Below, piece after piece: positions 565 to 63,969 of a stretch of DNA of 64,000 bases. Positions within the stretch are counted from its first letter, which is position 1, and each line of letters opens with the position of its first letter. Location: positions 248,001 through 312,000 of the forward strand of contig CAJFCV020000001.1 of the NCBI GenBank assembly GCA_904066235.2, in the 5' to 3' direction. The notes under the pieces were generated by a model. The model was not told where the DNA came from, did not search any database, and saw only the letters and a list, made by a program, of their open reading frames with translations. Source of the DNA: Bursaphelenchus xylophilus (lineage: Eukaryota; Nematoda; Chromadorea; Rhabditida; Aphelenchoididae). The position numbers and the translations under genes are program-made.

Positions 565-1274
565 ATATTCAATTTGAAGTTAATCGTTTTATTTTTTTAT
601 TTTTTTTTTGAGGCAAGACATTTCAAAGCCGACCCTACGAAACCTCGAATGTTTCCACGTCGAGTCTCGCGGGCGGAATTCGACTTTTTTTCCATCAACA
701 TGCAAATCCAAAGGTTAGAATCGCATGGAATCGTCAACAAGCCCTCTTGACTTCTCTATTACTACCGCTTTTGGGCCGACTTTTGGATGTGATGTGATTG
801 CATTTACTTTGGAACACTTTTCCACTTGAACTTCCACCAAAATTTGATTGTATTTTTGCGGAAAACTATGGCGAAGATTACGGTAAACCGACGGAGTTTT
901 GTGGTTTTGGTAGTAGGTAGGTGTATATCCCGACCTTACCGAAGTTGTGATCTTCATTTTGCATTTTTTTTATTCCAATTTCAAAGTTTTTGACCGCACT
1001 GTGCGAGAAACATTTTTTTTATTTTTTGCACAGTGCAGTCTAGCTTTTGGGGAAAAAAGTTGAGTGCACTGTGCAAAAAATATTCCACAGCGCACTGTGC
1101 AAAATCACAAACTAAAAATTTCTCGCACATTGCAAAATTTTTGCAAAAATATTTTCTCCGCACAGTGCAATCCAAATTTTAAGAAAAAAATCGACTGCAC
1201 TGTGCAAAAAAAATTTTTTGAAGGCCATCACACAACTTTTTTACCACAAAAAAATTAATATTTTTTGATTCCAG
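565..1274. other. Intergenic / 5' region of the glycosyltransferase gene
   Basis: This stretch must hold the missing first exon of the downstream glycosyltransferase, which enters at 1275 needing one base from an upstream exon. I could not fix it. A short ATG frame at 649-713 encodes a basic, type II-like N-terminus and ends at a possible donor, but its phase does not join the 1275 exon. The segment 760-960 is mixed-sequence DNA without an obvious product. The last 280 bases contain a cluster of palindromic GCAC-N-GTGC motifs. Confidence 0.4.
996..1205. repeat. Cluster of GCAC-N-GTGC palindromes (about 6)
   Basis: Copies of GCACTGTGC or GCACAGTGC are spaced 25-50 bp apart among A/T runs, plus one decayed copy (GCACATTGC near 1125). 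This is the first of about 20 clusters of the same motif in the window. Confidence 0.85.
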
Positions 1275-4723: not shown

Positions 4724-4979
4724 GCACAGTGCGAATTTTGCCTTGTGTTTTTCGCACTGTGCAGTCGGAAAACTGATTATTTTTCGCACCGTGCAACATG
4801 AAAAATGATTTAATGTGCGCAGTAAATCGTTTTCCAGGCCCAATAAACCCAGCTCTCCACAATAAAAATCATCATTTTTTTCTGCACGGTGCGTTTTCCC
4901 AATTTTTTCCGCACAGTGCAAAAAAAAAACAAATTTCGCACAGTGCGGCCAAATTTTTTTTTGTTTTTTGCACTGTGCA
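4724..4979. repeat. Cluster of GCAC-N-GTGC palindromes between glycosyltransferase and AGXT2 genes
   Basis: About eight copies with centre bases A, T, C and G, alternating with A/T runs, between the 3' end of the glycosyltransferase and the next gene. The remaining intergenic DNA to 5270 is AT-rich with no other feature that I can see. Confidence 0.85.
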
Positions 4980-11191: not shown

Positions 11192-11730
11192 CTATTCAAT
11201 GATTGGTCTGAAGCAGGAACGAACCAAAAAGTCGTGGCTGATACAGATAGATCCTTCCGAACAATCGTCAGTCTTTTCGCAGGCTGAAATCCGATATTGT
11301 AAAGGTTACTAAAATATACCTTACTTTTTTGAACGGGCTCATAACACTTCCCTTGAAAACAGACTTGATTCAAAGAGGTGAAGCACTCGAAATTGCATGC
11401 TAAAACAAGTCCTGTTACAAATTTATGATATTTTTATATTGCATTGCGCAAATTTTGACTGCCTATTTTCTGCACCACAAGATCATAAAACTTGCGCACT
11501 GTGCAATTGACAAAAAAAGAAAAAAATTAAGAGTATGAAAAAAATTAGAAATATCGCATACATCGACTGTAGACTTCGGCGCCATCGTGCTTCCTCTCTT
11601 CCAGCAGCGTTTCCAATGCATTAAACAAGCTGTATCGATGTAATTCATCCAACCGTCGAGACAGGAAGCCTTCGGAGCCGAAGGAGAAAACGCTGAACAG
11701 CAGGACGAGCAACCGAATTTGAGAGAGCAT
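11192..11730 (-). CDS. Small secreted cysteine-rich protein (EB-module-like)
   Basis: Exons 11730-11562, 11399-11325 and 11283-11192 join with consistent phase 1 junctions to 111 residues. The N-terminus is a clear signal peptide (MLSQIRLLVLLFSVFSFGSEG). A charged linker of about 35 residues follows, then eight cysteines in the last 55 residues with spacing C-x3-C-x7-C-x4-C-x7-C-x5-C-x5-C-x8-C. The KTDDCSEGSIC segment resembles nematode EB modules, which are secreted disulfide-rich domains. There is no membrane segment after the signal. I cannot assign a function; innate-immune effectors and extracellular matrix factors of this size are both possible. It is transcribed in the same direction as the LRR gene upstream of it. 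Confidence 0.7.
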
Positions 11731-12252: not shown

Positions 12253-15200
12253 TTAATGTTGATTTTTTGAATATTCTAAGATATCATCGTACGTAATCAC
12301 TTCATTTATCGCATATTGAGGGATCTCGATTCCTGGCCATTTTGGTATGGCGTTCGGGTTCATGTTACCTTTAAGCTCCTTAAAGGTCAGTTCCTGAATC
12401 GTACTTTTTGTAGGCAATGGTAAACTCACCCTGTAAAGCACCTTGACTTTCGGACAGTTGACCACCTGGCTTTCGTTGACCGTAAAATTTGTGTCCTTGA
12501 GATAGATATACTCTAGTTCCGGAAAGTTTCGAATCGAGATGTTCTTTAAGAGATTGCCTTCCAAATCGATCGAGATCATTTTGGAAGTGTTCTGAAAAAG
12601 TTTGATTTACGATTTACACGGCAAGGTGTCATGTGAAAATTCTGTTGCTGTTCTTTCAGTCCTTCGGGAAACCCACGTTTATTTGCCGTTGCAAAATTTC
12701 TTTTGCCAGCCGAGACTAGCCGTTCAGAATGATGCTCGACCGTCCGGAAAGGGAAGTCGCTGGTCAGAAACAGGCGCCGGGAGAAAAAAGTTCACCTTGC
12801 GCTTTGCAATTTCCCGCATTTTGCACAGTCAAAAGCTTTTTTGGGTGTCGCTCGCATCATGACTTTTTTACGCAGTGCGCGTCGCCGAAAACACTCCAGC
12901 GGCTTTGCGAACGGACTAGTAAAGGTCACATTTGTTTCCTACGGCTGTTTCCTAGCTTAATTTCATTCCTAAGATACTAGTCGCGGAAAAAAGTCCTGGG
13001 ATTTTCTCGCGCCCCCCAAACTCCATCGCGCTCCGAAAAGTTGATTTGTCGCGGGAATCGCGCGCGACAATAAGGCAAAATCAACAAAATTGCACTGTGC
13101 AAAAGCACTTTTCGGGTTCATGCACAGTGCAGAGTCGCAGAAAAATCCCAGGACTTTTTTCCGCGACTAGTATAGCTCCCGACTCCTGGGGTCTCGGTCG
13201 TCACTCCTCTCTATCTTCCCTACCTTTCCGTCCATTTCAAATGAACTCAAGGAATTGTTTGTCAAGCTAATGGCCCTCAAATTTGGCGCATTCCAGGAAG
13301 CCTCCGGACTGAAGTAATTGATTCTGCCATTCGCCAAACATATCAGTTCCAAGCTCGGCAAGTCGACAAAACTCGCTTCGGGCACCGTCTCAATCTGATT
13401 GTGATGCAATTGAATGTCTTTGAGTTCTTCTGCACCGGCAAAAGATTTGGTCCAGAGTCTAAACACACGGCAGTGGTCGATGAATAAATGGGTGATGGGC
13501 GCTTTGCGCAAGGCGTCTCTGAAGTGTTTGCGTCGTGAAGAATTTTGTTGCTTACGGTTCTAGATATCCAATTGGATTAGATGCCAAGCTCAGCAGATTA
13601 AGACTTGAGTAACCGGCAAGATCTCCGTCTTTTACCCAAGATATCTAAAACAGAATAACTGTTAACAAGGGAATGGACTTTATGTGTAAATCGATTTTGG
13701 CTTGGGACATAGTCAGATCGAAGGGTGTGTGGTAGTCGATTATTCACTTGGGGGGAAATCTCTGCGCGGGGCTTCAAAGCCGAGAAAATCGGCTTCAAAG
13801 TTTGGACGAAAATCAAAGGAAAAGGATAGGGATCCCGGAAAAGGAGCGATAAAAAGTGTGAAGCAGTGGCCGAGTGGTCAGTGCGCTCACTTTTTGCGCA
13901 AAAGGTCGCAAGTTCGAATCTGCTTCCATTCATAACTTTTTTAAACAAAAACTTCTATTAATTTTTTACCCTTGAACTCGATTATCGATTCAAGAAGTAT
14001 ATTTTAATCGCAACCTTTCCATTTTCAACGGCTTTGCACCTTCCCTTTACAGTTTTAGAGCGCAGGGCACAACATCAACCTGATGTATTCAAAAACAACT
14101 TTCCATTATGTTAACTTTTTTCTCTATACCACTTTTTTAAATGTACAGCCGGATTAGCACGAAGATAGCAGAAGTAAAAAACGATAATAATGATTTGAGC
14201 TTGGAAAGACTTGAACCTGCAACCTTTTGCGCAAAAAGCGAGCGCACTGACCACTCGGCCACTGCTTCACACTTTTTATAGCTCCTTTTTCGGGATCCCT
14301 ATCCTTCGATTTTCGTCTAAACTTTGAAGCCGATTTTCTCGGCTTTGAAGCCCCGCGCAGAGATTTCCCCCCAAGTGAATAATCGACTACCACACACCTT
14401 TCGATCTGACTATGTCCCAAGCCAAAATCGATTTACACATAAAGTCCATTCCCTTGTAAGACGTTTCAGCGTTTTTGTAGTGAAAAATAGATTATCATTT
14501 TGTCGGGAAAATAATGCGGAATCTCCCTAATGAAACAATTTCATCAAATCTTGAGCATCGCAGTTCCTTTGCCCTAAAGTCTGCCAAAGCTTACACGGTT
14601 GTCCTCCAAGTAGAAAGCCTCCAGTTTTGGGAGATGGAATCTTGGCAAGTCTTCGATTTCATTATAATTCAACGATATTTCCCTCAGATTTGGTTGGTTG
14701 TGGAACATGTGTGGGGTGAGAGACGTTACGCCGCAGTGTTCAATAGACACATAGGTTAAATTTACATTGGGAGGGAAGACGGATTTTAAAGCTTTCAGAG
14801 GCTCGATGCAGGAGGAGAAATAAATTGATGAAATTTCGATGTGATTTGCGACCTGAAAAAAGGTACATGAATATGAACTGACTGAATAGGAGCTCTGGTG
14901 ATGACTTAGAAAATTGTGGTCTATTTCAATAAAATTTGAAAATATGGCTATTTATCCGTACAGGGGAAATATTGGTATATCCGAAAAGCCGCTGAACCAA
15001 TTTTGACGTTGGCACAGTGCGAAAGAAGTCAAGAGCGATAGCTCAAAATAGCAACTTGCAGGTTGAGCCTGAACTCTCCCCCTTTTCTGAACTTTCCCCC
15101 AAACTGAACTCTACCCCTTTTTTGATTTTCGCCAAAAAATCTGAACTCTCTCCCTTTTTGAACACTCCCTCATTTTGAAAATTGAAAAAAACGAGGTGTG

Positions 15201-15806
15201 ACATGTTATACGATGGAATTTTTTTTTCAAATTGAAAAGAATTTTCATCGTATAAGATGTCACACCTTATTATTTTCAATTTTCAAAATGAGAGGGAGTG
15301 TTCAAAAAAGGGGAGAGTTCTGAGGGGGGAAAGTTCAAAAAGAGGGAGAGTTCAGAAAAGGGGTAGAGTTCTGCCGCAACGCACTTGCACGGAGCAAAAA
15401 GCCAGAAATTGCACAGTGCAAAGTGAATTTTTGTTTTCCCACAATGCAGGACTGAATTGTCTATGGCTTTTTGTACCGTGCAATGAGTTTTTTGAGCTGT
15501 CGATAGCACTTTTTTGCACAGTGCAAAAGTCAAAGATTAGTCCGGAGACTTCACTGACGGATCAGTAATCCGACTAGAAGGTGTTTTTTTTTGTTACATA
15601 CGTACTGTAGTAAGCAAGAAAAGACTTACCAAAATCTTGTCCAAATTTCCTATCAAACATTCGACCTGTGGCTTTGACAAATTTTTACATGCAATCGAAT
15701 TTCTTTCGTAATCACAGCCCGCTGGAGCGCAGTGACCGTCATAACATTTGTCGAGAATCGCAATTACCGTTGGGAACAACAGTGGATAAAGAATCGAAAA
15801 ATTCAT
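12253..15806 (-). CDS. Secreted leucine-rich-repeat protein
   Basis: Exons 15806-15630, 14852-14595, 13644-13556, 13518-13224, 12591-12430 and 12393-12253 give 373 residues with all junctions in phase. The N-terminus has a signal peptide (MNFSILYPLLFPTVIAIL) and a cysteine-rich cap. At least seven degenerate leucine-rich repeats follow (for example NLREISLNYNEI, KLEAFYLEDN, ELKDIQLHHNQIETV, NLRAISLTNNSL, ELEYIYLKDTNFT). The tail is short and hydrophilic, with no membrane segment, so it is probably extracellular. Two introns are only 37 and 36 bp (13519-13555, 12394-12429). The latter is a multiple of three and open, so retention would add 12 residues; a paralogous copy at 17873-18110 diverges exactly there, supporting splicing. 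Introns 1, 2 and 4 contain foldback elements. Confidence 0.85.
12970..13176. mobile_element. Short inverted-repeat element in LRR intron 4
   Basis: Ends are inverted copies of about 35 bp (ACTAGTCGCGGAAAAAAGTC and a following CCTGGGATTTTCT block). Inside are two GCAC-N-GTGC palindromes. Just outside, 12880-12930 resembles 19400-19450 in inverse orientation (ACTAGT..., CGCTGGAGTG), another dispersed repeat. Confidence 0.75.
13666..14455. mobile_element. Foldback element with tRNA-like sequence in both arms (LRR intron 2)
   Basis: Two inverted arms of about 260 bp (13666-13935 and 14205-14455) are nearly identical; the loop of about 270 bp is unrelated. Each arm contains a tRNA-like core: a polymerase III A-box match (TGGCCGAGTGG) and a B-box-like GTTCGAATC or GTTCAAGTC. 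In the left arm (13860-13926) the flanks GAAGCAG and CTGCTTC would form a 7-bp acceptor stem, but the anticodon and T stems are not canonical. I read it as a tRNA-derived mobile element rather than a functional tRNA gene. Confidence 0.75.
15066..15376. repeat. Purine/pyrimidine-asymmetric foldback in LRR intron 1
   Basis: The left half is a chain of CTGAACTCTCCCCC-like units and the right half the inverse (GGGGAGAGTTC units). In the middle (15198-15263) is a hairpin with the core TGACATGTTATACGA, the same core as the hairpin array in the GST introns at 51-54 kb. Flanking it, at 15013 and 15400-15530, are GCAC-N-GTGC palindromes. Confidence 0.75.
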
Positions 15807-19370: not shown

Positions 19371-19640
19371 TTTAAATATTTACAATAATTCTGCGCGGCG
19401 CACTTTTTGAAAATACTACTAGTCTGTTCGTAAAGTCGCTGGAGTGATTTCTGCAACAACACTGTGCAAAAACACAATTTCACTTTGCAATGTGTAATTT
19501 TCGATGTTTTGCACCGTGCAATACGATTTTTTGGGCTGTCGCACCATTTTTTCTGCACAGTGCATGTCTCAAAAAAAAAAAAAAAAATGACTGCAACAAC
19601 TTTACGGACTACTCACTATCACATCATTGCTCATTATCAA

Positions 19641-27069: not shown

Positions 27070-27385
27070 ATCGATTTTTCAAAATTCCTAAAAGGCCGAA
27101 ATTGTTTGTTAAAAAATTTTTTTTGAATGCTGACGTTATCGTTACTGTATAAAAAGACACCCACAGAGCAACCAGGTGATCTCCCACCGCTTTTTTCGTA
27201 GATTTTTTTAATTCCACCCCTTCTCTTCAGCCCAGTCCACCCTCGTAAATCTCTCTGGGAATTCGGGGAAAGATCGTCTTGTTTTTTTTTATTACAACTT
27301 GAACATAAAAAATCGTAACATTATTTCCTGTAGAGGGTCAAGTTTTTTTTAATTGCATCGTAAAAGTAAAATTTTTTAGAATTGC

Positions 27386-41042: not shown

Positions 41043-44000
41043 TTATTTGCGTTTCTCGTCCTTCTTCCCCGCTTTTTGGGGCTGTTTCGGCTTTCGGCGG
41101 CCGGGTTTCGGGCCTTGGCCATTCGGTGGGCCCGGAATGTTCAATGGGATGGTGGAAGTTGGTGGCGCCGGGGGTGGTGGGGCTCCGGGGAGGGCGACCG
41201 GCTTCGGGACGGGTGAGGTATGGCGGTTGGCAGTGGGCGGGGTAGAGGTCGGTGGGGCTGTGGGGGTGGGGAGGGCGGCCGACGGATCGGTGGCCGAGTA
41301 CGGCGGTGGTGGTTCCTGGAAAAAATGTGAATCAGTCGTAAAATTAAAATTATAAAAACATATTTAATATCAAATCCCCAACTAAAATTCTGAAACTCAA
41401 AAAAAAATGAGACAGCACTGTGCAATGACTAAGAACCTCATTTTTATGCTTCAAAAAGGATGCAGAAAAAAATGGCTCCAAAAATCACACTCTTCTTCGC
41501 CAAAAAATCCATTCATGTCCACAAAATCCAAACTTTTTCCATTGCACCGTGCAAGAATTAAACATTCTTTTCCTGCACAGTGCAATGGATAAAAGTCAAG
41601 TTTTTGGCCTCTAAACACTCGACAAAAATATTTTTTCATTCCCAATCCTCTTTACTTCTCCTAAACGTTCTATTTCAACAATCAAACCCACCAATTTCTC
41701 TGTCCGCACAGTGCAATTTCAAAAAATATTTTCTCGCACTGTGCATTGACCAAAAATCCAATTTCTGGCCTCAAAAATGCCCGAAATGAAAATTTCTTTC
41801 CTTAAACACTCTCTCCATCCTCTATTCTCTCCATATAAATCCCCTAACCCATTCATTTCCACCTCTGCACAGCGCAAGATCAAAAAATTTCCCATGCACT
41901 GTGCAGTGACCAAAAATCCAATTTCTGGCCTCAAAAATGTTCGAATTGCAAATTTCTTTCTGTAAACACTCTCCTCATCCTCCATTCTCTCCATCTAAAT
42001 CCCCTAACCTTTTCATCTCCACCTCTGCACAGTGCAAAATCAAAAAATTTCCCATGCACTGTGCAAAACCCCAAAAAATCTTCGAACCTACCGTAGCCGC
42101 GGGCGGTGGGATCAATGGTGGTGCGGTTAGGGTTGGAGGTACTCTGCTCTGTGCTTGACTGGTTTGTGGTTCCTGTCGCTGGTCTGAGCGATGTCTTCGC
42201 TGTCTATTTTGTCGATTTGAGGGGGCTGTCGTTCCCCTTGGCCGTTGTTGCCTTGCCGTTTCTTCCGCGACCGCATAGGCTCCATTTCTCGGCCTTCCTC
42301 TCCTCAACAACGTTCCCGGATGCCGGAGGGTGTCCGAAAAATGTTGAGCGGGCAGTTTGTTCGGATTGGTGGAGGGCGTATGCACAGCGCAGCACTTTAC
42401 GAACAGCGCCATCACAAACAGGACCCCAATTCCGATCAAAATGCAGGCCCACCAGTTCTCGCGGCTCCATTGGGAGACGGTTTGGATGGTTTGCTTGTTG
42501 AACAAGAGGTTCTTCAGTCTTGCCAGAGGGCCATTCGCATCGACCGAGCGGCATTTCCGGAAGATATCACAATAACCCTTGTAATTGTTGCACGGGGATC
42601 CTGGATGCAGTAATAAGCCGGGCCGGCCTTCTCTGCTCTGTTGATGGAACACTCCGGCGGCAAATTCGGGGAGCTCAAGGGTCGAGACACATTCTGAAAA
42701 AAAATAAAAAATAAAAAAACAAAAATTTTTCAAAAAAATCATGAAAAATGCGAACAAAAAACAATGTAGGGCCCTCAAATTATTTCCATTTATTTCCTAA
42801 TCAAATTCCCTCCAAAAATCTGCAAACATTCTTAAATTTTTTAAACTTATTTTCACTGCACTGTGCGATGTCTTTTTTGCACTAAAAATACGACTGCACA
42901 GTGCAGAACAAAAAAATTTGATTGCACTGTGCAGACAAGAAAAAATACTTTCTCTTCGCACGGTGCAAGAAAATTTTCGTTCTTTTTGCACAGTGCGAGC
43001 CCACTTTTAGTGGGAAAAATGGGCTGCACGGTGCGGAAAAAAGGACAATCATAAAAATTGCTAAAACTTCTCAAATTTTTCGAGGAATTCGAATGAAAAG
43101 CAACAAAAAAGAACTTCCAAAAACAAAACCTTGGTCTGTTCTTCTGTTTCAAACAATTTTCAAAATTTTTTTTTCAAAAAAATCGAAAAAATCCAAAAAA
43201 TCACTTACTTCCATTCTTTTCACAAGCCAAGTGGCACAATTCATCCGGCTTCCCTTCGGTCAGGAAGCAATCTTTGAGGCCGACATGAGCACAAATGGAG
43301 CCATTGCAAGCGCCGGCATGGCAAACTTTGGTCGCGTCCTGGCACGGCAGACCGTCTCTTTTGGGTTTGCTGTCCGGGCACTCCGGCTGATAGCCGTTGC
43401 AAAACTGACTGTACAGACATTCCGACTCTTCGCGGCACTTTCGTTTCGCGACCGCCGAAAAGAATCCGCACGAAATCGGATCGCAGCACTGGCCCTCCGA
43501 TGGCGAGCAACGGGCTTCGGGTTTGCGTTTGCAGGCGCCCGCAGAGAATACGCCTTCCCGTTCGTGGGGTTGGCAGCAGCGGTCGTTCATTTGTTTGCAG
43601 TCCAGGTCCGAGAAGCCGCAGTCGCATTCCTCGCCCGGCTCCTTGATCTGGTTGCCGCAGAAGGCCGAGGTTCGCTCCTGGAAGGAAAAAATAATACAGT
43701 ATAATTACAGTATACTGGGACCTTCTGACATCACGGTGAGGGACCTGATCCAGTGGCAAAAAACGTGCCATTTCGCACCCGGGAAGCATCAAAAATGTGG
43801 CAAAATGCTTCCCCCTCCAAGTGAAAAAACTTCGTTTTGAACGGCCCTTTCCTTCATGAAAAGAACAGGCGCGATTTTGAAATCGGATTTTTTAACTTGG
43901 AGAGGGAGGTATTTTGCCACATTTTTTATACTTCCTGGATGCCAAATGGTACGTTTTTTGCCACTGGATCATCCCCCACTTTATATCTCCTATTTTAAGT

Positions 44001-47000
44001 CAACCTCATCAAAAAAAATATTTTCATTTTTTCGCACAGTGCAAATCAAAAAATTGCGCAAAAATGACTCTGCACCGTGCAAAAAAAGACAAAAATATTT
44101 TTCAAGCTGAAAATCCAGAGATAAAAAAGCGCTCAGACGCCTTTTTAATTTACTATTCTACTGCACTTTGCGAAAAATCCTGTGTTTTCCGATTGCACAG
44201 TGCGGTTTTGAAAAAAAACCAAAGTCTTCAGAAGCCTTTTGAATTTACTATTCTACCGGACCGCCCAAAACTTTACAATTTTTCCGACTGCACAGTGCGA
44301 AACTTCGCCTGTTCAAAAATGCAATGTGCAACGAAAAAAAATCGTTCGAAATCATAAAAACCAATAGTTTGAAGCCGTTGAAGCCATTCTAAACTGGTTT
44401 TAAACATCAGTTTCGTTCCTACTTCCCATAAGAATAAACTTTTTTTCCAGCGCACCGTGCAAATTCCACAAATATTTTCTAATCCGCACTGTGCATTCAA
44501 AACTCCTCCCCAACCGCTTCAAACCAACAAACCTGGAAGCAATTCCTCTTCTTGCTGCTCATCATCAAGTTTGAGAATGCCGGATTCACCGGCGGCTGCG
44601 ACAAAACCTCATACAAGACCACACTCATATTGGCGATGGAGCACTTCGAAAACCGCGCATTGTTCGGCTTGTCGCCGGAGGTGGCCGACGAAAACATGAT
44701 GTAATTTCCGTCAGGGAGACCGGGCTGACATTCCGATGGGTAATCGTGCGGCGAGCCAAAGTTGTGGCCGATTTCGTGGGCCAGAGTTAGCTGTGAGACG
44801 CGGGCCGGAACTCGGTTGCCGTAGTTGACCAGAGTGACGATTCCAGTGTTCAAGGAGCGAGAGACCATTCCTCGAGAGCCTTCGTTGTATTTCTGGTAGA
44901 TTTGACAAATCCCACCGGCAGTATCTGCAAAAAAATGTTTTTTCGACATTTTTATTGCACTGTGCAAAAACTAAAAGCTGAAAATCTCCTCTAGATCAAA
45001 ATTTCTTTTCGGAAATTGTCTCAACAGCTCCTCATAGGCTCCATTAAGCCAAATTCTCTCTAAAAATCAAACAAAAATATCAAAATCTTACTGTAATTGG
45101 GGCTGGCGACCCAAGCCAAGCCCAAAGTTCCGCCGATGAAATCTCTGAAAGTTAGAGCGTATGCCAAACAAAATGAAGAGTGATTTCGTTGGGAATTCAA
45201 GTTCAGATAGTTGGATACGTCCACATTGTCGGCGCAGAATGGGTTGTCCGAATTTTCGGTGGGCTTTCCGCCGGAACAGGTCTCATTGGTGTAAATCTGA
45301 AAAAAATGATTGTAAAATACGATCAAGCACATGTATTCAAAATTTCTATTGCATTTTACAGCTAAATACATCTAAATTTTTCCTAAAATACGGATTTCTC
45401 AAAAAAATTTTTTTTTTCAAAAAATCACAAATGATTGTAAAATACGATCAGGCACATATATTACAAATCTATATAGCATTTACAGCTAAATACATCTAAA
45501 TTTTTCCTAAAATACGAATTAAAAAAAAATTTCCAAAAAACCAAAATCGTATTTTAGCGCAAAAAATCATAAAAACACCTTCCATAAGCCCCAAAACTCA
45601 CAGTAGTTCGCTGGATGACAAAATTCAGCCCAGTAATTCCACCAAAATTCGTATTTTCGTAGATATGATTCACAGCTTTGATATGATTATAAAATAATGA
45701 TACGATCTCCTCTCGGGTTCGGATTGGGTCATGGTTCCCTTCCTTGTGGAACACATGCACATACAACTTCTGATCCGCCTGCATGTAAATTGAGCATGTT
45801 CGGACGGAGTAAATTTTGCGGCCATTTACTTCCAGAATTCGCTCGGGAAGTGATCTTTTGGTGCGGTTATTGAGGCTGAAAAAGGGTGGAAATAATTTTA
45901 CATCAAGCCAAAATAAGAGTCAGTCCTTCATCCTTCTTATTTTACTCAATCAAACCACAAAACTTGACCAAAACTCCACATATGTGCCTAAAACAATATA
46001 AATCCAAAAATTTCTCCCCGAAACTCTGCGATAAATCCCTTCCTTACCGATCATCCATCAAGTCAAAGCTCAGATGAGATTTCCTTCTAATTGTTTCGTT
46101 ATATTCATTCACCGGTTCGAACTTGTACGCGGCCGAAGTTTGTATCTTCATCATCGCGGCTTTGGTCTCGGAATTCAATCCACACCCGTGATCGGCTAAA
46201 AATATTCTCGGTAGAGTAAACCAACTCCATTTGCTTTCAATTTAACCTAAAAACCAAACAAAGAACAGTAAAATCTTACCATCTCCATCTGAATCATGAT
46301 CATGCCCATCTTTACTCTCATGCTCTTCCGGAACGTCTCGTTTTGGCCGAAATTTGTTGTGATTGATCTGTTCGTCCTTGTAGATGATCGAGTGATAGTT
46401 TTCGGGCCTCGAATCGACATCGAAATATCTGGCCGCCTTCTCAACCGTAAACGTCTCTCCGTTGCCAAGAATAATATGGCCATCAAAGAGTCCGTCCAGC
46501 AGAGAACCAAAGACTTTTGAGCGTGGATCACCGACAACATGACCCTCGTACAGAAATTGCGCCGGTCGAATCAAATGCGATTGATATTCTCCATTTACGT
46601 CGAGAAAATGGTCATCCGAGAAGATATCATTGGAATTTTCAGAGATCGGGTATAATTTCAAATGGAATAGCCTGAAATTTTATATAATTAGAAGGCCCAA
46701 TTACTAATCCAGCCTCTGACAACCAAATTCTACAAAAAAATCTTTGTTTCAAAAGAAAAATCAATTTTTTCCATCGATTTATCAAGAAATCCAATAATTT
46801 TGGGAAAAAACCAAAAATATTTCAATTTTTTCAAACACCCTAAGGGACTTTGTTGTCTCAGAAGCCTGAGGATTCCTACACAATCTTTCTAAACCATTCC
46901 AGACTAAATTGAATCAATACTTTACAGAAAACCATCAAATTTTTCAGGAACAACATTCGAAATCGAAGACATTTGGAAAAAAACTCGTTTCTTAAAAATT

Positions 47001-48837: not shown

Positions 48838-49524
48838 TTGCACTGTGCATTCAAAAATTTCGCACCGTGCAAAAAAATAAAAAATTTTTATTGCACAGTG
48901 CGCTCTCAAAGTTCCAATGGAAATTTCGCACAGTGCAAGGAAACCAAAAACTCAAAAACTTTATTGCACAGTGCGACGTTTATCGCGAATGCACGGTGCG
49001 AAAGAAGGCAAAAGGTCATTTGCACAGTGCAATCATTTTTTCATTTGCACCGTGCAAAATGTTTGCCTGCACAGTGCGACGTTTATCGCGAATGCACCGT
49101 GCGAAAGAAGCCAAAAGGTCATTTGCACAGTGCAATCATTTTTTCATTTGCACTGTGCAAAATGTTTGCCCGCACAGTGCAAGGTTTATCGCGAATGCAC
49201 AGTGCGAAAGATGGCAACTGTATTGCACAGTGCGCTCTCAAAGGTCCGATGGAAATTTCGCACAGTGCAAGGAAACCAAAAACTCAAAAACTTTATTGCA
49301 CAGTGCGACGTTTATCGCGAATGCACGGTGCGAAAGAAGCCAAAAGGTCATTTGCACAGTGCAATCATTTTTTCATTTGCACTGTGCAAAATTCTCTTTC
49401 AGGAATTTTGCACAGTGCAAGAAACAAAAAAGTTTATCGCACAGTGCGCTCTCAAACTTCCATGCACGGTGCGAAAATGAAAGTCCATTTGCATAGTGCG
49501 GATTCTTCAAAAATTTTGCACGGT
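48838..49524. repeat. Higher-order palindrome array between ADAM and GST genes
   Basis: More than 30 GCAC-N-GTGC sites. Units recur with identical spacers: GACGTTTATCGCGAATGCAC (four times), CATTTGCACAGTGCAATCAT followed by TTTTTCATTTGCAC (three times), and CTCAAAG(T/G)TCC.ATGGAAATTTCGCAC with GGAAACCAAAAACTC (twice). Most spacers are intact while centre bases change, so the array grew by recent unequal duplication. Confidence 0.92.
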
Positions 49525-51049
49525 GCGAAAAATTTCAAAACCAAAAACCATGCTCTAGCTGACAAAGCTCGTTAAAGACAGTATTTCCCAGACAAAATAT
49601 CGCCAAATGAACCCTTGGAATAACGAACGCCGGACCCCAAAGAAGATGTCTGTTTTACAATACGGGCGTAATAAAAGAAATCGGATCGAAAACGGGAAAA
49701 GGGGATGAAAACAAAGTTGGGGGAAAAAAGGATTGATCCGCTCTTACTACTTTTAGACGTCTGGAAGAGAGAGGCTTCTTCAGTAAAAGGATCGAGGAGA
49801 GGGTGACATTTTATACGAAAAATGGGGAAGAAAGAAAAAAAAGAAAAATTTTTTTAAAAAATGCAAGGTAAATTGGGAAAAATTTAGAGTAGAATTTTCT
49901 AATTCGAGAGAAAGATTCTTGACCAGCGGTTTGCAGAAATTATCGAGATTTTTTTAAATTAATTAAATTTTTTTTTTTTTTTTTGAGTTTTGCCACGAAA
50001 ATTTGACAGTCCGTAGCAAATGTTGAGTAAAAAATTACCACAAAAAATCAATTTTTTCCACGTAAAATTAGCAACGATATAGCCGAAAAAAGTTTTTCTC
50101 TGACGCTCTCTTCAATTTCTGCGCTCTCTCGCGAAAAAATATTGTTCAATATTTCGGTTGCTTCTGTAAACAGCGAGCTAAAATTTTCAGGAATTAAAAT
50201 ACGATCTATAGAAAATATCTATACCAAGTTTGATGCAAATCCGATCGCGCTGCGTTGAGAAATGGACGCTTTAATTTTAAGACCATTGCACTGTGCAATT
50301 GAAAAATTAATTCCAGAACCATGGGAAAGGCGAGAAAGCGGGGTGTAGAGCGACGAGAATAGGACAAATGCGATGCAATTTTATCATTTGAATTTCAAAT
50401 TTCGGAAATTTGAGAATTCCACAGCAAAAATTTTGAGTATTAGCAAAAAAAAAACATTTTTTCAATTTATAAAATACGAATTTGGCTACTATTCCTTAAA
50501 CAGATATGAAAAAAACGTTCCCTAGTTTGTGTGCTACAAGGTATACACGGAATATCATCGCTTTTAAACTAGACGGGCCACTTTTTGGTCTCTCCAAGGA
50601 CTTTTTTTACGAGAAATGTACATTTTTTTCGGTTTTTGTTCATTTAAACACGTGTCAGATTAACAATATAAAAGAAGGATTGTTTTCAGAAGTTTTCAGA
50701 GCGAAATTTAGCCTTTTTACAAAATAAAACGTTTTCGTGCCGGGACCGAAAAATTTTTCTGAATTGAAAAATTTGCCTTCTGCGTGGCAAACAACCAAAA
50801 AATTGTTATTTCTAGGCAATTTTCGGTGCGCAGAAATTTTTTTACCCGGGTTATATCGACTTTTTTATTCATAATACCTAAAATAAGGTCAAACTGAATT
50901 TTTTTCTGTTTTCCCACAATTTCCTATCTCTGGCCTTTCGAAGAATGGAATGAAATCACTTTTTCTCTCATTTTTCTTCTTCATTCAACTTTTTTCCGTC
51001 TGTCTCCATAAATTATCCCGGCCTTTTTTCCTTCAGATAGCCTAGAACA
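49525..51049. other. Intergenic, upstream of the first GST gene
   Basis: AT-rich. 50080-50240 resembles a repeat module seen at 21480-21660 (CTCTCTCG, AATATT..., GAGCTAAAATTTTCAG). A single palindrome lies near 50287. A T-rich CTTCAG acceptor at 51025-51036, 13 bases before the ATG, is a possible trans-splice site. Confidence 0.4.
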
Positions 51050-52669
51050 ATGTCCGAGCCCATTCTCTACTCGTTTTGGCGAAGTTCCTCTGCATGGAGA
51101 GTGCGAATCGCATTGGAATTGAAGAAAGTCAAGTATCAGCAAGTACACATTCACCTTTTCAAAGAAGAACAAGTAAGTATACGAGTTTTGGAGACATGTT
51201 ATACGATGGAAAGTTTTTTGCGTATAACATGTCGCCAACTAGAGCTAAAAGTTTGTACAATAGATATTGTGTTCTTAACGTCACCGGTTATGATATAAGA
51301 AGCCAATTTCGCGTGTATATCAACTAGGAACCCTATGGGGACATTTTATGCGATGAAAAGTTTCTTTCGTATAAAATGTCGCTAAGACGAGCTAAGACGT
51401 TCTGTTATAAATTTATTATATATTTTCAACAAACCATTGGCCATGACTTCACGAAGAGTAGGTCATTTTCTACTAGCAAGTGGCACTTTATACGATGAAA
51501 AATTTCTTTCGTATAAAATGTCACCCAAACGAGGTAATAGTTTTGCCACAAATTAATATTTTGTCGTCACGCTATTGGCCGTGTTTTCTCGAAAATTAGA
51601 CCACTTTTCACAGGCAGAAGACATTTTATATGATAAAAAGTTTCCTTCGTATAAAATGTCATCCAAACGAGGTCACAGTTTTACCGCTAATTAATATTTT
51701 TTCATCACGCTATTGGCCGTGATTTCTCGAAAAATATTCCACCTTTTACCGAACGGTGACATTTTATACGGCCAAAAGTTTCATTCGTATAAAATGTCCC
51801 CATTTCTTTTCAGAACAACAAAAAGTACTTGGACTTGAACCCAGCCGGATTTGTCCCCCTTTTTGTCCACGATGGCCATGTCATCCCCGAATCTTTGGCC
51901 ATTTTGGAGTACCTTGATGAGGTTTATCCGCAAGAGCCTAAACTAATCTATGGAGATGCCGCTCATAAAGCGCTCATCAGAAGCTTGGCGCTGATTGTAA
52001 GCTGGCATTCTTCGTTTTGTTTGACTAATAAAATTGCAAAAAAACCTTGTTTTAATTTTCAATTCTTCCCGAAATTCCTGTCAAAAAATCGTTTGTTTAG
52101 ATTATAACCAATATCCAGCCATTTCAAACGTCTCGCGCTGTCAGCCAGCACTCAGCCGATCCAGTAAAACAGGATGAATTTCCCAAATTTTTCATCGAAC
52201 GAGGCTTCGAGACGCTGGAGAAACGACTCCAAAAAACGGCGGGGAAATTTGCCGTGGGCGATAAATTGTCGCTGGTCGATGTTTGTATCCCTCCACAGGT
52301 CTATCAGAGTGCCAGGTAGTTAATTTGAAAAGTTTTCATTTTTTGATTTTTGCACGGTGCGGCCTGTTTTTTAGTGCAAAAATGCGGTTGCACAGTGCAG
52401 TGAGGATTATTTTTGTTGAAAATATGTGATTTTTGAATTTTTTTCAGCTGAAATGAATTTGAATTTTATTTAATTGGACTATGGAAATGATCAGGCCGAT
52501 CTTTTTTTCTCAAAAAAAAAAAAAAATTATTTTTTTTTTCAGATTCAATGTTGACATGAACAAGTTCCCAATCATCAAACGTATCAACGAAGAGCTCAGT
52601 AAAATCCCAGAGTTTGTCAAAGCCGATGGTCTCCATCAACCAGACACTCCTGATGAGCTTAGACCCTGA
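51050..52669 (+). CDS. Zeta-class GST / maleylacetoacetate isomerase, copy 1 (active-site Cys replaced by Ser)
   Basis: Exons 51050-51172, 51814-51996, 52101-52315 and 52543-52669 give 215 residues, the normal length. It begins [19 protein letters not shown]. The zeta-class signature is S-S-C, so the cysteine at position 14 is serine here, while the neighbouring copy keeps it. Other hallmarks are present: [27 protein letters not shown], and the C-terminal domain with [28 protein letters not shown] and KIPEF near the end. The family isomerises maleylacetoacetate to fumarylacetoacetate with glutathione in tyrosine degradation. The substitution need not abolish isomerase activity but should alter thiol chemistry. 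Exon structure and phases match the second copy exactly, so this is a tandem duplication. Intron 1 holds an array of hairpins. Confidence 0.92.
51192..51798. repeat. Array of five hairpins filling GST copy 1 intron 1
   Basis: Five copies of a stem whose strands read GACATTTTATACG-like and CGTATAAAATGTC-like, with a loop of about 15-20 bases, are spaced about 125-150 bp apart. The last three spacers are repeats themselves (CACGCTATTGGCCGTG, TTTCTCGAAAA, CCAAACGAGGT). The first hairpin starts 19 bases after the donor, and the last ends 15 bases before the acceptor. Confidence 0.85.
52353..52401. repeat. Two palindromes with cassette spacer (GST copy 1 intron 3)
   Basis: GCACGGTGC and GCACAGTGC are separated by a TTTTTTAGTGCAAAAA segment, the core of the palindrome cassette in inverse orientation. 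Confidence 0.8.
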
Positions 52670-53166
52670 GGGCAAAAGTTTTAAAAAATAAAAATTTTTT
52701 TGATGACAATATTTTTATCAGTTAATAAATATTATTTCTACAAGGTATTTTTTATTTTTTTGATCTTTTTTTTAGCATAAATCTACTGTGATTAAAAAAT
52801 TTTCCGCACCGTGCAGTCAACTGTTTGATTTTTTCTTCGCACCGTGCAATCAAACTCAAATTTTGATTGCACAGTGCAAAAACAAAAAAATTTTTTTGTT
52901 GAATTTCTCTCTGAAATTGGTTGCCAACCAATGCAAAGCATCTGTAGACCTTTACTTTGCACCCGAACGCCCACAAACATCACAAGTTTTCTGCGATTTT
53001 GGTCATTTACAGCCACGTGTCGTCAAAAATTGTTTACAAACGGAAAATAAACAGAAAAAGCGGGTGTTTAAAAGGTCAGACAGACCTTTGCAAGGCTCTC
53101 AATCTGTCTGCTTTTCATTTTGTATCGCGCTTTTTATCGATTTTTGTCTTGCGATTGTCCAAGACA
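52670..53166. other. Intergenic between the two GST copies
   Basis: Contains the poly(A) signal of copy 1 (AATAAA at 52724-52729), three GCAC-N-GTGC sites (52805-52880) and the presumed promoter of copy 2. Confidence 0.5.
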
Positions 53167-55630: not shown

Positions 55631-58617
55631 AAAAAAATCCCATATTAGCCATTATTCCCTCCAAAAAACGTCCTCTAAAAACCCATCGTTTCTTCGAAAA
55701 TCCCGTTCCAAAACGGCAGCACGAGATGGAACGATCGTCCAAAAAAGGCGAGAAGGATTGTAAACGCGACCTTTCGCGTATTTTTTTCTCTTCCACCCTT
55801 TCGTAATATTGCTTTTGGAAGGGAGTTTTACAAATGTTGCGTGGAAAAGAGCTGGGAAAAGGGTAGAAAATTAACACAGCGATTCTATGAGTACATCGAA
55901 TTTTCGAGAATTTGGCTTTTCTTGAGAGATAAATATTCTAATTAATTTTCGCGATTTTTTGAAAAATATAATAATAATATTTTCGGTACGAAAAAAATAA
56001 AAAAAAAACACCAAAAAAATCCCTAATAAAATCGGAAAAATTATATTTTGATATTTTTGGAAAAAATTTTAAAAAATAAAAAACATCCCTAAAAAGTTGG
56101 AAAATAATTAAATTAATCTTTGCGATTTTTCGAAAAAAAATTAAAGAAGTTTTGGGCAAGAATTCGAAGTGAAAACCAGAAAAAATCAAAAAAAAACCCC
56201 TAAAAAATCGAAAAATAATTGAATTAATTTTTAAGATTTAAAAATGAAATGTTTTTTAAATAATCTTTGTCCAAGAACTCGAAGCGAAAACGAAAAAAGA
56301 TTGATTAAAAAAATCTAAAAAACCCCTAAAAAGTCGAAAAATAATCAAATTGTTTTTTTTTCAGATTTTAAAAAAAAAAATTTTATTTTTAGTCTAAAAA
56401 TTCAAAGAAAAAATCAAAAAACCCACAAAATAAATAAAAAAATTTTCCGACTCTCTCCAATATTCGAAAGCGAAACCCCATAAAGCCAATTACCAGGCTC
56501 ATAATTTGCATGTGAAAACATCCCACGAACAAAAAATCAAGTTTTCCGAGCGCATTTGTCAAACAAATGGGATTTTTTGGTTGGGTATGTTAATGGGAGC
56601 AAAGCCTAAAAAATTTTTGCGAGGCCTGTCGCGTCAATTTTAGGGAAAATTAGATCTATTTTAAAGGCAAAAATCAATTTTTGCTTTTCCGTGCACAGCC
56701 CAAGCAAATTTTTTTAATTGTTTCGACCCGTACAGTCCGGGGATTTTTGAAAAAAAAATTTTTTTTGAATTTACAGATCGTTTTACGTAAATTTCAAGAA
56801 TGTCAATTTCACTGTGCAAATTTTTTTTTTCAAATTGCACTACGCAATTTTTTTCTGAACCTGCACAGTGCAAAACATTTTTTCTAAAATTTGCATCATG
56901 CAAACATTGCCTTTAACCGCACAGTGCAAAAAATCTTTCTCAAAAAATTGCACACTGCAGAAAATTTGTTTTAAGATCTGCACTGCACAGTGCAAAAAAT
57001 CGGTTTTCAAACCTGCACTGTGCAAAAAAAGTTTCTCAAAAATTTGCACAGTGCAAACAAAAAAAATCCCAGGAAAGAAACTACTAACCCGATTCCCAAA
57101 CACGCAAAACAAATTGTTCTTACTCGGTAATCCAAAGTGCAATAAGGTTACTCTATGGAAGAAAATTCGTCTCTTCCCGACCTTACTTTAGTCTACCAGG
57201 CATTTAAGTGGGTAATCTAACCATTCTCGGGAGAAGACCTTGAGAAAAAAGAGCGCGAAAAATTACCTGCAGTGAACAAAAAAGAAATTTCGAAAACATT
57301 TTTTATATTTTGGAAATTTTTCGAGATTTTTTATTTTTTCGAGGTAAATAAAATAACGGAGAATTGACGAGAACAAAAATTCACGAGGAGAAAAGAAGAA
57401 GAATGGTCTGTAAAAATGATGTCTAAACTTTTTTTTACAAAAGGAAAAATTGAAAAATCATCGATATTATACTTGACATTTGTCTTCAAAAAAGGTCAAA
57501 AATCAATGTTTTTCAGTTGAAAAAAATCAAAATGGCATGGAGAAATATTGAAAGGTCATAAAATCAAAAAAAAATTTGTGAAATTTTGGAAAGGTGACAT
57601 TTTATACGAAAAATTTGTTAAATCTCAAATTTGATTTTTTGACAAAAGTTGATGCTAAAGTAAGATAAAAATAGCTAGACAAAGCTCTTTGTGGCATAAA
57701 CCATCAATTTCAAATATAAAAGTTTGAAAAATTCTCCATTAGATGTCTACTACAACATAATTTTTGTTCCGATCCTTCCCAGAACCCCTAAAACAATATA
57801 TCTCCTGCTTTATAAAGGATTTCCTTTCACTTCTAACCCCATAATTTCAAAATTGTGTCATAAAACCAAATAATTTGCAAGAAAAAAGAGAAATGGATCA
57901 AAACTTCAGCTAATAATACCCTCAGGCAGTCTTTTCTAATGAATCAAATCAAGTGCGGCGAGAGGCGAAGACAAATACTGGTCGTAATGAAGAAGAAATG
58001 AAGAAGAAACAATGGGAGAAAAAAAAATTATTTTCATTTTTTTTTCATGTCTGCACTGTGCAGATTCTGAAAAAATTTTTGCACAGTGCAAAAGAAAAAT
58101 TTTCGTGCGGGAAATAAATCTTTGTTGAAAAATCGAATTTCCAGTGGATGATAGAGACTGTGAGTGGTGTTTATAACGGGCTGAGTCATCAAATTTTTCG
58201 GCGATCTTCAGAAAAAAAAATTTTTTTTTTGAAAAAAATAAATATTTTATTTGAATTTTTTTTGAAAATTTAATTTGATATCTACAATATTTAGACCCTC
58301 ATAACATCCAAAATGCAAAAAAAAATATTTTTCCACTAAAATTATTAAAGTTATTTATAAAATCCCCCCTCCCTTCGCCTCAAATTACCCTGTTTTCGCC
58401 TTCAAAGCACGTCTGTTTACTCGCACTGGTCGGTAAACAAAGATCTAGCGGTTATTAAGATTATTTCAGACGCTACCTCGCTGCTCCGCGGCGTTAGAAA
58501 CGTTTGACGAGGGGAACGAAACGATTATTTATGATAAGACCGGGAAATTGAGGGGATAAAAAGTATAAAAGTGGAAAAATTTGGGAATTTTATGCATTTC
58601 AAAGCTCAAAATTTTGT
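55631..58617. other. Gene-poor AT-rich region
   Basis: No coding region recognised. It contains repeated A/T-rich phrases (55920-56400), a palindrome cluster at 56806-57055 (about 6 sites, several decayed, e.g. GCACTACGC, GCATCATGC), a TGACATTTTATACGA half-hairpin at 57596, two palindromes at 58051-58091, and a mixed-composition segment at 58370-58560 that may be regulatory. Confidence 0.4.
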
Positions 58618-59432
58618 ACTGCACGGTGCGGTTAAAAATTTTTGACTGCACCGTGCGAAATTTCTATTTTTATTTCTGCACCGTACAGTCAAACTTTTTC
58701 ACTGCACAGTGCAGGCAAAAATAAAATTGCACTGTGCGAAAGGTTGTCGCAAAAAAATGTTTGTTGCACAGTGCAGAATTTTCCATTGCACTGTGCAATT
58801 TCTCTATCGCTTGCTTGCACGGTGCAATCAGATTTTCCATTGCACAGTGCAGTCAAATGTGAAGTTTTGCACAGTGCAAAAGGTATGTCGCAACAAAAAA
58901 ATTTCGCGGCACGGTGCGGCACAATTTTTCTCTGATCGCACAGTGCAATGAAAAATTTGCTTTCGCACAGTGCAAAAAACTTTTCCTCACGGTGCGGTCA
59001 AATTTTTGACTGCACTGTGCAGGCAAAAATAAAATTGCACTGTGCGAAAGGTTGTCGCAAAAAATTTTCGTTGCACAGTGCAGAATTTTCCATTGCACTG
59101 TGCAATTTCTCTATCGCTTGCTTGCACGGTGCAATCAGATTTTCCATTGCACAGTGCAGTCAAATGTGAAGTTTTGCACAGTGCAAAAGATATGTCGCAA
59201 CAAAATAAATTCGCGGCACGGTGCGGTCAAAAAATTTTGAGTGCACCGTGCAAAGTCTTTATTTTTATTTTTGCACCGTGCGGTCAAACTTTTTCACTGC
59301 ACAGTGCAAGCAAAAATAAAATTGCACTGTGCGAAAGGTTGTCGCAAAGAAATTTTCGTTGCACAGTGCAGTGGAAAATGCAAAAACTTTTCCGCACGGT
59401 GCGGTCAAACCTGTGTTTTTGCACCGTGCAAG
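58618..59432. repeat. Higher-order palindrome array
   Basis: About 35 GCAC-N-GTGC sites built from a repeated unit of roughly 300-340 bp. Each unit runs: CAGGCAAAAATAAAATTGCAC, GAAAGGTTGTCGCAAA, CAGAATTTTCCATTGCAC, TTTCTCTATCGCTTGCTTGC, AATCAGATTTTCCATTGCAC, CAAATGTGAAGTTTTGCAC, then TATGTCGCAACAAA and a CGCGGCACGGTGCGG end. Two full units and a partial third are present, with nearly identical spacers. Confidence 0.93.
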
Positions 59433-62153: not shown

Positions 62154-63969
62154 TCAGATCTTGGCCTTTCGTTTTTGGATCGATTTGGCCATAAATTCGG
62201 CCATTTCAGGGTCTTTGGCGCGCTGAATCAGGGCTTTCACCTCCTCAACGTGCGTATTTCTCCATTGAGGGCGGAGGTCGCGAACCATCAATTCTTTCAC
62301 GGCCAGAACTGACTGAAAATCGTAAAAATAGGGTAAGATTACGAGCAAAAAACACATTAAAAATTTTATGAACAAAATTAATTTTTTTTTTTTTTTTTTT
62401 TTTTTGAATTTCGAGATTTTCTTCAAAGAATTAGTTGATTTTTACTCCAAAAATTACAAAAAAATTAATTTATGGCAATCTTTTAGCGTTTTGCACAGTG
62501 CAAAAAATTTTAAAAATTTCCCACCGTGCACTCTCAAAAATTTTTTTTGCACTGTGCAGACGAGTAAAAAATTGCACTGCGCAAAAAAAATAAGAATAAC
62601 ACACCACAAAAAAACGATCCGAAACTTACCCCTGGCGCCAAGGTGGTCAAATATTTCAAATATTTTTCGCACTCCTCCTTGAAATTGGCCTCGGGATAAA
62701 CGTGCGAGATCAGTCCGGCCTCGTGCGCCTCCTTGGCCGACAATTTTTCGGAGAAGATCAAGTGCTTGGCGGCTTTGATGCGACCCATTGTGTGGACCCA
62801 ATTGGTGGACGAAGTTCCTTCGGCCAACAAGCCCAGCTGGGTGAAGGGGAGGAGGAAGTATGCCTAAAGAAATGGAACTTTTATCTCACAAAATTTTTGG
62901 TTTATTGCACCGTACAAAAGAAACTTTTTGTGAGTTGCACAGCGCGAAAAAATTTTTGTGACTGCACTGTGCGAAAGGCAAATTTTGTGACTGCACTGTG
63001 CGAAAAAAGTATATAACTGCACTGTGCGAAAGACAAATTTTGTGCCTGCACTGTGCGAAAAAAATTGATAACTGCACTGTGCGAAAAAATTTTGTGACTG
63101 CACTGTGCGAAAGACAAATTTTGTGCCTGCACTGTGCGAAAAAAGTTTATAACTGCACTGTGCGAACGACAAATTTTGTGACTGCACTGTGCAAGAAACT
63201 AATTTTGTGACTGCACAGTGCTAACGACAAATTTTGTGATTGCACTGTGCTAACGACAAATTTTGTGATTGCACTGTGCGAAAGACAAATTTTGTGACTG
63301 CACTGTGCAAGAAACTAATTTTGTGACTGCACTGTGCGAAGGAGAAATTTTGTGACTGCACTGTGCAAGAAACTAATTTTGTGACTGCACTGTGCAAGAA
63401 ACTAATTTTGTGACTGCACTGTGCAAAAAAAATTTATAACTGCACTGTGCGAAAGGCAAATTTTGTGACTGCACTGTGCGAAAAAAAATTGTAACTGCAC
63501 TGTGCTAAACTTTTTTGATTTTTTTCACTGTGCAGCGACTCAAAAAACCTTTTAAATATTGAAAGAAATTGTCGTAAAAAATCACCTTCTCAGTCGCCAA
63601 AACTAAATCGAACAGTCCCAAAATTGTGGCGGCAATTCCGATAGCCGGTCCATTCAGCAGAGCGATTGCAATTTTCTTGTGCTCAATGAGTTCCGAGGCG
63701 GTCTCAATGTACTTCGGAGTGGCGTCGGAGACGCTGAAAATCGAATTTTAAACCAAAGAATCATAAACATTTTTCGCATGTTAAAATTTCTCACTTTCTA
63801 ACTTGTTTTGCCGTCAGTTCTGTGCCAGCACTGAAGAAATCGCCGGCTCCTGCAAAATTCAATATGTTGTTTTGGAGTAAAACGTGATTTTCTTACCGGT
63901 AAGGACAGTAAAAATGATTTCGTCATCAGAATTTATTTGGCGCAGAAGTTTTGGGAGGGCGTCGTAGAG
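62154..63969 (-). CDS. ECI2-like enoyl-CoA delta isomerase / crotonase-family enzyme (5' end beyond window)
   Basis: Exons 63969-63897, 63849-63795, 63733-63586, 62863-62630 and 62312-62154 join in phase to about 222 residues; further N-terminal exons must lie past position 64000. Crotonase features: an oxyanion-hole region TGAGDFFSAGTEL, NGPAIGIAATILGLFDLVLAT, and PFTQLGLLAEGTSST, where the Glu corresponds to the catalytic Glu of delta3,delta2-enoyl-CoA isomerases (ECI/PECI). The sequence FSEKLSAKEAHEAGLISHVYP is typical of the ECI2 branch. The enzyme moves double bonds of unsaturated fatty acyl-CoAs for beta-oxidation in peroxisomes or mitochondria. The C-terminus KAKI is not a standard peroxisomal signal, so location is uncertain. 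The intron between 62863 and 63586 is filled by a palindrome array. Confidence 0.88.
62489..62585. repeat. Palindromes in the last crotonase intron (about 4)
   Basis: GCACAGTGC, a decayed CACCGTGCAC, GCACTGTGC and a decayed GCACTGCGC within 100 bp, next to a long poly-T run (62381-62405). Confidence 0.75.
62907..63530. repeat. Tandem palindrome array inside a crotonase intron
   Basis: About 24 units, each containing ACTGCACTGTGC, a short linker (GAAAGACA, AAGAAACT, TAACGACA or GAAAAAA) and AATTTTGTG or TTATA. Period is mainly 29 bp with 26-bp variants. Almost every unit has centre T on the plus strand, so it is highly homogenised. It occupies most of the 722-bp intron. Confidence 0.95.

Follow-up and report, generated by a model that had tools for sequence, protein, structure and literature searches.

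Several nematode repeats are known in which a short box stands out from the DNA around it. The satellites of root-knot nematodes keep a 17-bp CENP-B-box-like motif while their overall identity is 36 to 74%, while centromeric repeats are reported to carry a 19-bp box (PMC9673304, PMC3694981). Cele_Fam_1_35/MINISAT1 of Caenorhabditis elegans is a minisatellite confined to terminal autosome regions and contains palindromic regions of 13 bases. Caenorhabditis also has a satellite group, related to Helitrons, that consists of multiples of AGAANNTTCT, a palindromic decamer kept across species (PMC4595182). Such boxes have been suspected of being protein bound, yet each is embedded in a repeat family, and box and family are hard to separate. 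Here we analyze the dyad GCAC-N-GTGC in 64,000 nucleotides of Bursaphelenchus xylophilus DNA (contig CAJFCV020000001.1, positions 248,001 to 312,000), referred to below as the window. In this genome the family seems to be gone, with the symmetric box remaining tens of thousands of times. We consider it moderately probable that the dyad arrays are binding sites for a dimeric protein, locally duplicated and held by selection or homogenization. Our literature searches met no description of GCAC-N-GTGC as a repeat; papers with matching letter strings were not examined, so absence from print is not shown.

The repetition that an earlier reading of the window (the original prediction) had pointed out is real and far more extensive than it supposed. 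Exact GCAC-N-GTGC occurs 203 times between 996 and 63505, compared with a mean of 0.40 and a maximum of 2 sites in 100 dinucleotide-preserving shuffles of the window. A further 26 copies with one mismatch lie near the clusters, where about 1 would be expected by chance, giving approximately 229 in all; the claimed figure of about 250 was too high. The decayed copies carry the mismatch in one half in 11 cases and in the other half in 15. As stated in that prediction, all four bases occur at the center of the exact sites (85 T, 72 A, 24 C, and 22 G). The length of the center is nearly invariant: dyads with a spacer of 0, 2, 3, 4, 5, 7, 9, or 10 bp are absent from the window, and spacers of 6, 8, and 11 bp are found 3 times, once, and once, respectively.

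The same holds genome-wide. The assembly searched comprises 78.25 Mb in 8 contigs; the published B. xylophilus v5 lists 11 contigs, with a maximum of 15,101 kb, an N50 of 12,794 kb, an N90 of 12,140 kb, and a total of 78.3 Mb (PMC7561696). TTAGGC repeats are present at the start of contig C1; they are absent from the one other contig end examined, the first 600 bases of C2. A count over the genome, as proposed with the original prediction, gave 41,616 exact sites versus 178 for the reversed pattern, whereas the form with a two-base center, GCACNNGTGC, is at chance level (243 versus 291). The window is dense in sites, with 3.2 dyads per kb compared with 0.53 per kb for the genome. The site extends beyond the 9 bp first noticed: the form YYGCACNGTGCRR accounts for 26,852 of the 41,616 exact sites (control, 14), and the site length is approximately 13 bp. 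After symmetrization, pyrimidines make up 98% of first and 82% of second flanking bases (67 clusters with 541 sites, each cluster given equal weight). When up to one mismatch is allowed, 60,270 copies are found (control, 8,238). The 18,654 one-mismatch copies include about 8,060 expected by chance, leaving an excess of about 10,600, or 0.26 per exact copy.

Neighboring dyads seldom start less than 20 to 22 bp apart. Genome-wide, 624 pairs are separated by a gap of 0 to 12 bp and 18,550 by a gap of 13 to 25 bp, an interval of equal width. The rule is strong but not absolute, as gaps of 8, 10, 11, and 12 bp occur among the close pairs listed. Within the arrays examined, only 5 of 464 neighbor spacings are below 22 bp, whereas uniform placement would yield 105 on average; these loci, which also served for the neighbor-pairing test below, are a chosen subset, and some sites are counted twice because two of the loci (L029 and L031) have about 1.4 kb in common. 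Most spacings fall between 22 and 40 bp, with peaks at 26, 29 to 30, and 38, and the shortage of close spacings looks like a footprint. Two further regions on C6 and C3, picked as array rich, contain 45 and 54 sites with no spacing below 22 bp. Their flanks follow the same motif, with 193 of 198 first and 179 of 198 second flanking bases as expected, and they have 7 one-mismatch copies close by. The unplaced contig C8 (L017; 14,551 bases) has 45 dyads in its first 5 kb, in arrays with relatives near 13.1, 15.4, and 19.5 kb of the window. On C1, at about 100.4 to 108.0 kb, the dyad pattern repeats every 2.36 kb or so, which suggests that a larger unit was duplicated in tandem.

Comparison of related arrays shows that the box is conserved above the rest of the repeat unit. 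We aligned such arrays and scored changes wherever at least one copy holds an intact dyad. Fifty pairs were strong (E < 1e-25, 75 to 97% identity, and at least 150 columns), of which 31 were kept after 19 lying within two regular tandem arrays were dropped. In the 31 pairs, 49 of 1,351 arm positions had changed (3.6%), compared with 729 of 4,478 spacer positions (16%; Fisher p = 6e-41), and in nine non-overlapping pairs the counts were 18 of 407 and 202 of 1,271 (p = 1e-10); these p values treat alignment columns as independent. The flanking YY/RR positions had changed in 110 of 639 cases (17%) in the larger set and 34 of 194 in the smaller. A one-sided count over all 50 pairs gave 84 of 5,404 for arms, 133 of 676 for centers, and 1,475 of 10,693 and 1,165 of 5,147 for A/T and G/C spacer positions, respectively. 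Because differences are scored from the intact side only, a one-sided count (arms, 49 of 2,388, or 2.1%) understates arm change, and the either-copy count was used in its place. In the 31 pairs the center base changed faster than the spacer (49 of 169, or 29%; p = 5e-5). We rejected a faster-changing center as a general rule: among the nine non-overlapping pairs the excess lacks significance (11 of 51; p = 0.33), and it is unclear once the tandem arrays are included.

The dyads lie outside the coding DNA that could be checked. Supported coding sequence, defined as SCOT exons found by tblastn together with Pfam-matched stretches, amounts to 4,629 bp, only part of the coding DNA of the window, and contains none of the 203 sites. 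This agrees with the absence from exons noted in the original prediction. At mean window density 14.7 sites would be expected there; because the sites are clustered, a p value for coding avoidance would be unsafe. The dyads at 37312 to 37402 are clearly intronic, as the SCOT stretches on either side of them, one with its end at 37108 and the other with its start at 37619, are adjacent in a single protein record. The dyad at 44957 shares an open frame with a matched ADAM protease stretch and lies just beyond its edge.

Delimiting clusters at gaps of more than 300 bp yields 28, of which 5 are single sites, and not the approximately 20 first estimated. The long motif-free stretches described with that estimate do exist, as gaps between sites at 4970 to 11496, 33491 to 37312, 37402 to 41415, 44957 to 48840, and 59421 to 62493. 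A tandem or quasi-tandem arrangement is confirmed by the spacings given above and by tandem units at 31.4 to 31.9 kb and 62.9 to 63.5 kb. The clusters are as follows:

996..1205, unstranded: dyad cluster, 6 sites
4724..4978, unstranded: dyad cluster, 7 sites; 4724 and 4754 lie within an extended inverted repeat at about 4708 to 4778
11496..11504, unstranded: single dyad
13092..13130, unstranded: 2 dyads, between LRR-matched stretches
15012..15020, unstranded: single dyad
15411..15524, unstranded: 2 dyads
19511..19563, unstranded: 2 dyads, related to arrays of unplaced contig C8
23497..23698, unstranded: dyad cluster, 7 sites
24749..24757, unstranded: single dyad
27384..27747, unstranded: dyad cluster, 6 sites
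28297..29267, unstranded: dyad cluster, 19 sites, enclosed by an inverted repeat at 28233 to 29362 (310 aligned columns, 82%)
29856..29991, unstranded: dyad cluster, 5 sites spaced 26-38-26-37; strong relatives in two places, 33.3 and 37.3 kb
31333..32077, unstranded: dyad cluster, 20 sites, containing a 30-bp tandem array
32977..33499, unstranded: dyad cluster, 13 sites
37312..37410, unstranded: dyad cluster, 4 sites, in a SCOT intron (matched exon edges 37108 and 37619)
41415..42064, unstranded: dyad cluster, 8 sites, with a 160-bp higher-order repeat
42858..43034, unstranded: dyad cluster, 6 sites, flanked by ADAM cysteine-rich and disintegrin stretches
44034..44494, unstranded: dyad cluster, 6 sites, flanked by ADAM disintegrin and protease stretches
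44957..44965, unstranded: single dyad, just beyond the edge of the matched ADAM protease stretch
48840..49526, unstranded: dyad cluster, 24 sites, with a 103-bp higher-order repeat of four dyads
50288..50296, unstranded: single dyad
52352..52398, unstranded: 2 dyads
52806..52877, unstranded: 3 dyads
56863..57054, unstranded: dyad cluster, 5 sites
58053..58089, unstranded: 2 dyads
58621..59429, unstranded: dyad cluster, 27 sites; 64% identity in the best full-length match elsewhere, among 40 of 122 candidates scored
62493..62557, unstranded: 2 dyads
62964..63505, unstranded: dyad cluster, 20 sites, a 29-bp tandem array

Sites are concentrated toward the chromosome arms. Among 93 sampled positions, 34 fall in the left third of their chromosome, 2 in the middle third, and 57 in the right third, so that 91 of 93 lie in outer thirds. 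These positions are the matches listed for three extended patterns (9, 55, and 29) and not a random draw, and the binomial p value of 7e-14 for outer-third enrichment is too small because some sites share one array. On C1, none of 28 sampled dyads falls in the middle third, compared with 18 of 39 for a control word with a two-base center. Both sides of all six chromosomes are occupied, with C3 (3:12) and C6 (1:9) skewed to the right. Direct samples vary along the chromosomes: six 10-kb samples at 5 Mb contain 1 site, and six at 11 Mb contain 85, none of them on C1 and 69 on C2 and C3 together.

Binding by a dimeric protein fits the dyad because its one-base center is strict, decay affects both halves, the center is free, close spacings are avoided, and neighboring sites are independent of one another. 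We picture a sequence-specific symmetric dimer on the approximately 13-bp palindrome YYGCACNGTGCRR, in which each subunit would read one GCAC/GTGC half and the center base would go unread. Arrays may grow as units with one to several sites are duplicated locally, after which spacers would drift past recognition while the sites are kept by selection or selection-like homogenization. The outcome would be tens of thousands of sites, spread over the arms of every chromosome and set among spacers that are mostly private. Local duplication followed by long drift fits the arrays because those searched share no spacers and have relatives at short range. The likeliest role would be structural, that is, marking or organizing arm chromatin (heterochromatin or nuclear-edge attachment), with array length setting the protein load; this role is our guess, prompted by the spread of sites over the arms of all chromosomes. 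A more specific proposal is that a dedicated dimer reads about 40,000 sites to organize the arms, whether through chromatin, the nuclear edge, or dispersed meiotic pairing, and that the sites are selected even though distant arrays share little else; we put this forward tentatively, as possible rather than probable. Of the original prediction's view that the dyad is a DNA site for a dimeric protein, the strict dyad, slow arms, free center, and location outside the checked coding DNA hold; we infer the binding itself, the dimeric state, and selection over conversion as the keeper of the sites.

Several observations weigh against protein binding under selection. Homogenization between dyads would mimic selection. 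The true contrast between arms and spacers is somewhat smaller than the one measured, because sites lost from both copies are missed and because dyads anchor the alignments. One of the nine non-overlapping pairs, L008, shows little constraint (arms, 6 of 31; spacer, 35 of 148). Transitions predominate among the arm changes (38:11), a bias not necessarily accounted for by selection on binding. Six left-arm samples at 2 Mb (52 kb) contain only 4 sites, and the arms are therefore enriched but patchy; arm enrichment is in any case expected of many nematode repeats and is by itself no argument for function. A search for the binding protein in the THAP family, the sole family searched, was uninformative, as its controls gave no match.

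A rival explanation is that the arrays are borne by transposons. The dyads might be transposase-binding sites or minisatellites carried in nonautonomous elements (foldback-like, Helitron-like, or like miniature inverted-repeat transposable elements [MITEs]), with the arms preserved since only copies with good sites moved. Helitron-associated satellites are known in Caenorhabditis, one family being multiples of a palindromic decamer (PMC4595182), long inverted repeats occur at the 28.2- to 29.4-kb cluster, and chromosome arms are typical repeat territory. An open frame on contig C7 (L018:1111-1998) encodes a Tc5-type transposase DNA-binding domain (PF03221), but the 2 kb read there contains no dyads and no link of the domain to dyads is shown. 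The copy searches tend to speak against a mobile element. A 221-bp array has two strong relatives genome-wide, both less than 8 kb away in the window, and ten weak ones of 48 to 136 bp, two of them in the window. An 831-bp array has a best full-length match elsewhere of 64% identity; its other matches are partial and presumably driven by dyads and A/T runs. A single transposon consensus, which the original prediction had named as one outcome that would count against it, was not found for the two arrays searched out of 28 clusters. As the search passes over very common words, yields lower bounds, and scored 40 of 122 candidates for the longer array, this negative is weaker than that of a repeat library. 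Among 29 open reading frames chosen from the window and dyad-rich loci, no transposon-domain match was found, Helitron proteins, termini, and target duplications not being searched. We consider a transposon origin unlikely. Rather less likely is a recombinogenic box, by which dyads persist or spread through conversion or box-mediated exchange between arrays and not through functional selection. Boxes have been proposed as recombination junctions in Meloidogyne satellites (PMC3694981), and the modules of the higher-order repeats appear by eye to be bounded by dyads. The fast centers of the 31 pairs also show few transitions (12:37, versus 336:393 in the spacer; p = 0.003), as if centers had been swapped. 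However, the center excess is without significance in the non-overlapping pairs (p = 0.33), centers are close to spacers once the two regular tandem arrays are included (133 of 676), and simple conversion predicts neither the avoidance of close spacings nor the strict one-base center.

The remaining explanations are much harder to sustain. Meiotic pairing-centre-like sites bound by zinc-finger proteins, one of the roles originally suggested, would account for clustered short motifs on arms. The half-sites may resemble the HIM-8 motif. Arrays of 12-base motifs bound by HIM-8 and the ZIMs are a precedent (PMC9071541), and the lopsided samples from C3 and C6 are usable by a one-end model. C. elegans centers lie near one end, whereas here one motif occupies both sides of all six chromosomes (34/2/57 of 93 sampled sites), leaving a role of the C. 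elegans type unsupported and, in our view, very improbable. Even less credible are hairpins between neighboring dyads in RNA or single-stranded DNA. The statement in the original prediction that no hairpin can form holds for a single dyad and not for neighbors; pairing is possible between any two of them, and long stems are found at about 4708 to 4778 and at L017:2169-2199. Hairpins are nevertheless unsupported because neighboring sites do not co-vary: in 380 adjacent pairs, centers are complementary at a frequency of 0.276 versus 0.316 at random, and the flanks show no consistent extra complementarity. We give as little credence to another of the original suggestions, DNA like the periodic A/T clusters that license germline expression, despite the location of arrays in introns and A/T-rich DNA. 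Autocorrelation of AAA/TTT at lags 10 to 11 is −0.02 to −0.04 near dyads and 0.09 to 0.11 in dyad-free DNA, inside and outside the window (at lag 10, −0.019 versus 0.106 in the window and −0.018 versus 0.098 outside). Mean power is likewise 5.6 in 600-bp windows with at least 5 dyads (n = 33) and 7.4 in those with none (n = 136). The 10-bp autocorrelation is thus absent from the arrays, although A/T-run spectral power at 10, 10.5, and 11 bp is not clearly lower (2.2, 2.4, and 3.7 near dyads versus 1.7, 2.8, and 2.3 elsewhere in the window), and the test may be obscured by the arrays themselves, which have a period of about 30 bp.

Dyad-free DNA, both in the window and outside it, displays a 10- to 10.5-bp autocorrelation of A and T runs, as in the periodic A/T clusters of C. 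elegans. The 600-bp windows of highest power start at 47401, 30601, 22501, 47101, and 36001. A dyad-free 138-bp tandem repeat of 3.3 copies lies at 51340 to 51802, and its unit contains an inverted repeat by eye. Also by eye, similar peptide strings across reading frames at about 2.3, 8.2, 8.8, 17.5, 22.6, and 43.8 kb suggest a second dispersed repeat, and alike reading frames on opposite strands at 25182 to 25505 and 26708 to 26998 form an apparent inverted duplication. The SCOT protein of the window is 99% identical to a database entry flagged as an unverified contaminant and 88% identical to a Bursaphelenchus okinawaensis protein, and an Rfam scan found one tRNA. A protein search with an array reading frame covered 79 candidates and found none at E values up to 10. 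Viral contigs contain at least 120 stretches with two close dyads; among the 80 listed, 77 have one pair and 3 have two, which we judged to be chance.

Arrays of this kind would serve as a clean probe for the putative protein and as a natural test for sequence-encoded organizing sites on chromosome arms, and they would be a case for the direct measurement of selection on satellite boxes. Among described systems, the pairing-center motifs of HIM-8 and ZIM-1/2/3 resemble the dyads in forming clusters of short words toward chromosome ends but lie near one end per chromosome and are bound by different proteins on different chromosomes, whereas the dyad is one motif on both arms of six chromosomes (PMC9071541). 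The CERP2/CELE2 MITEs are alike in numbers and conservation, as they carry thousands of short motifs bound by the transposase-related protein HIM-17 and conserved above their neighbors; however, those motifs are paired within two inverted-repeat MITE families (PMC9757741), and our limited search found no such family here. Periodic An/Tn clusters share the setting of intronic noncoding nematode DNA (PMC7725773), but the dyad arrays lack the lag-10 autocorrelation of the remaining genome sample, with mixed spectral power. MINISAT1 and the AGAANNTTCT satellites are, like the dyad arrays, short-unit nematode repeats with palindromic stretches; they have a consensus unit, whereas in the dyad arrays no shared element other than the palindrome was found, and its one-base center and letters are unlike AGAANNTTCT. 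The root-knot satellites likewise place a short putative protein-binding box in divergent repeats with higher-order repeats and proposed box-mediated rearrangement. By their description, each of their boxes is part of a named satellite family whose monomers are long (about 170 bp; PMC3694981), whereas the dyad is a symmetric 13-bp box recurring mostly every 22 to 40 bp among mostly private spacers. Overall, the dyad arrays, two of which were searched for a shared consensus, seem to be a variant of box-bearing satellite DNA that has kept only the box.

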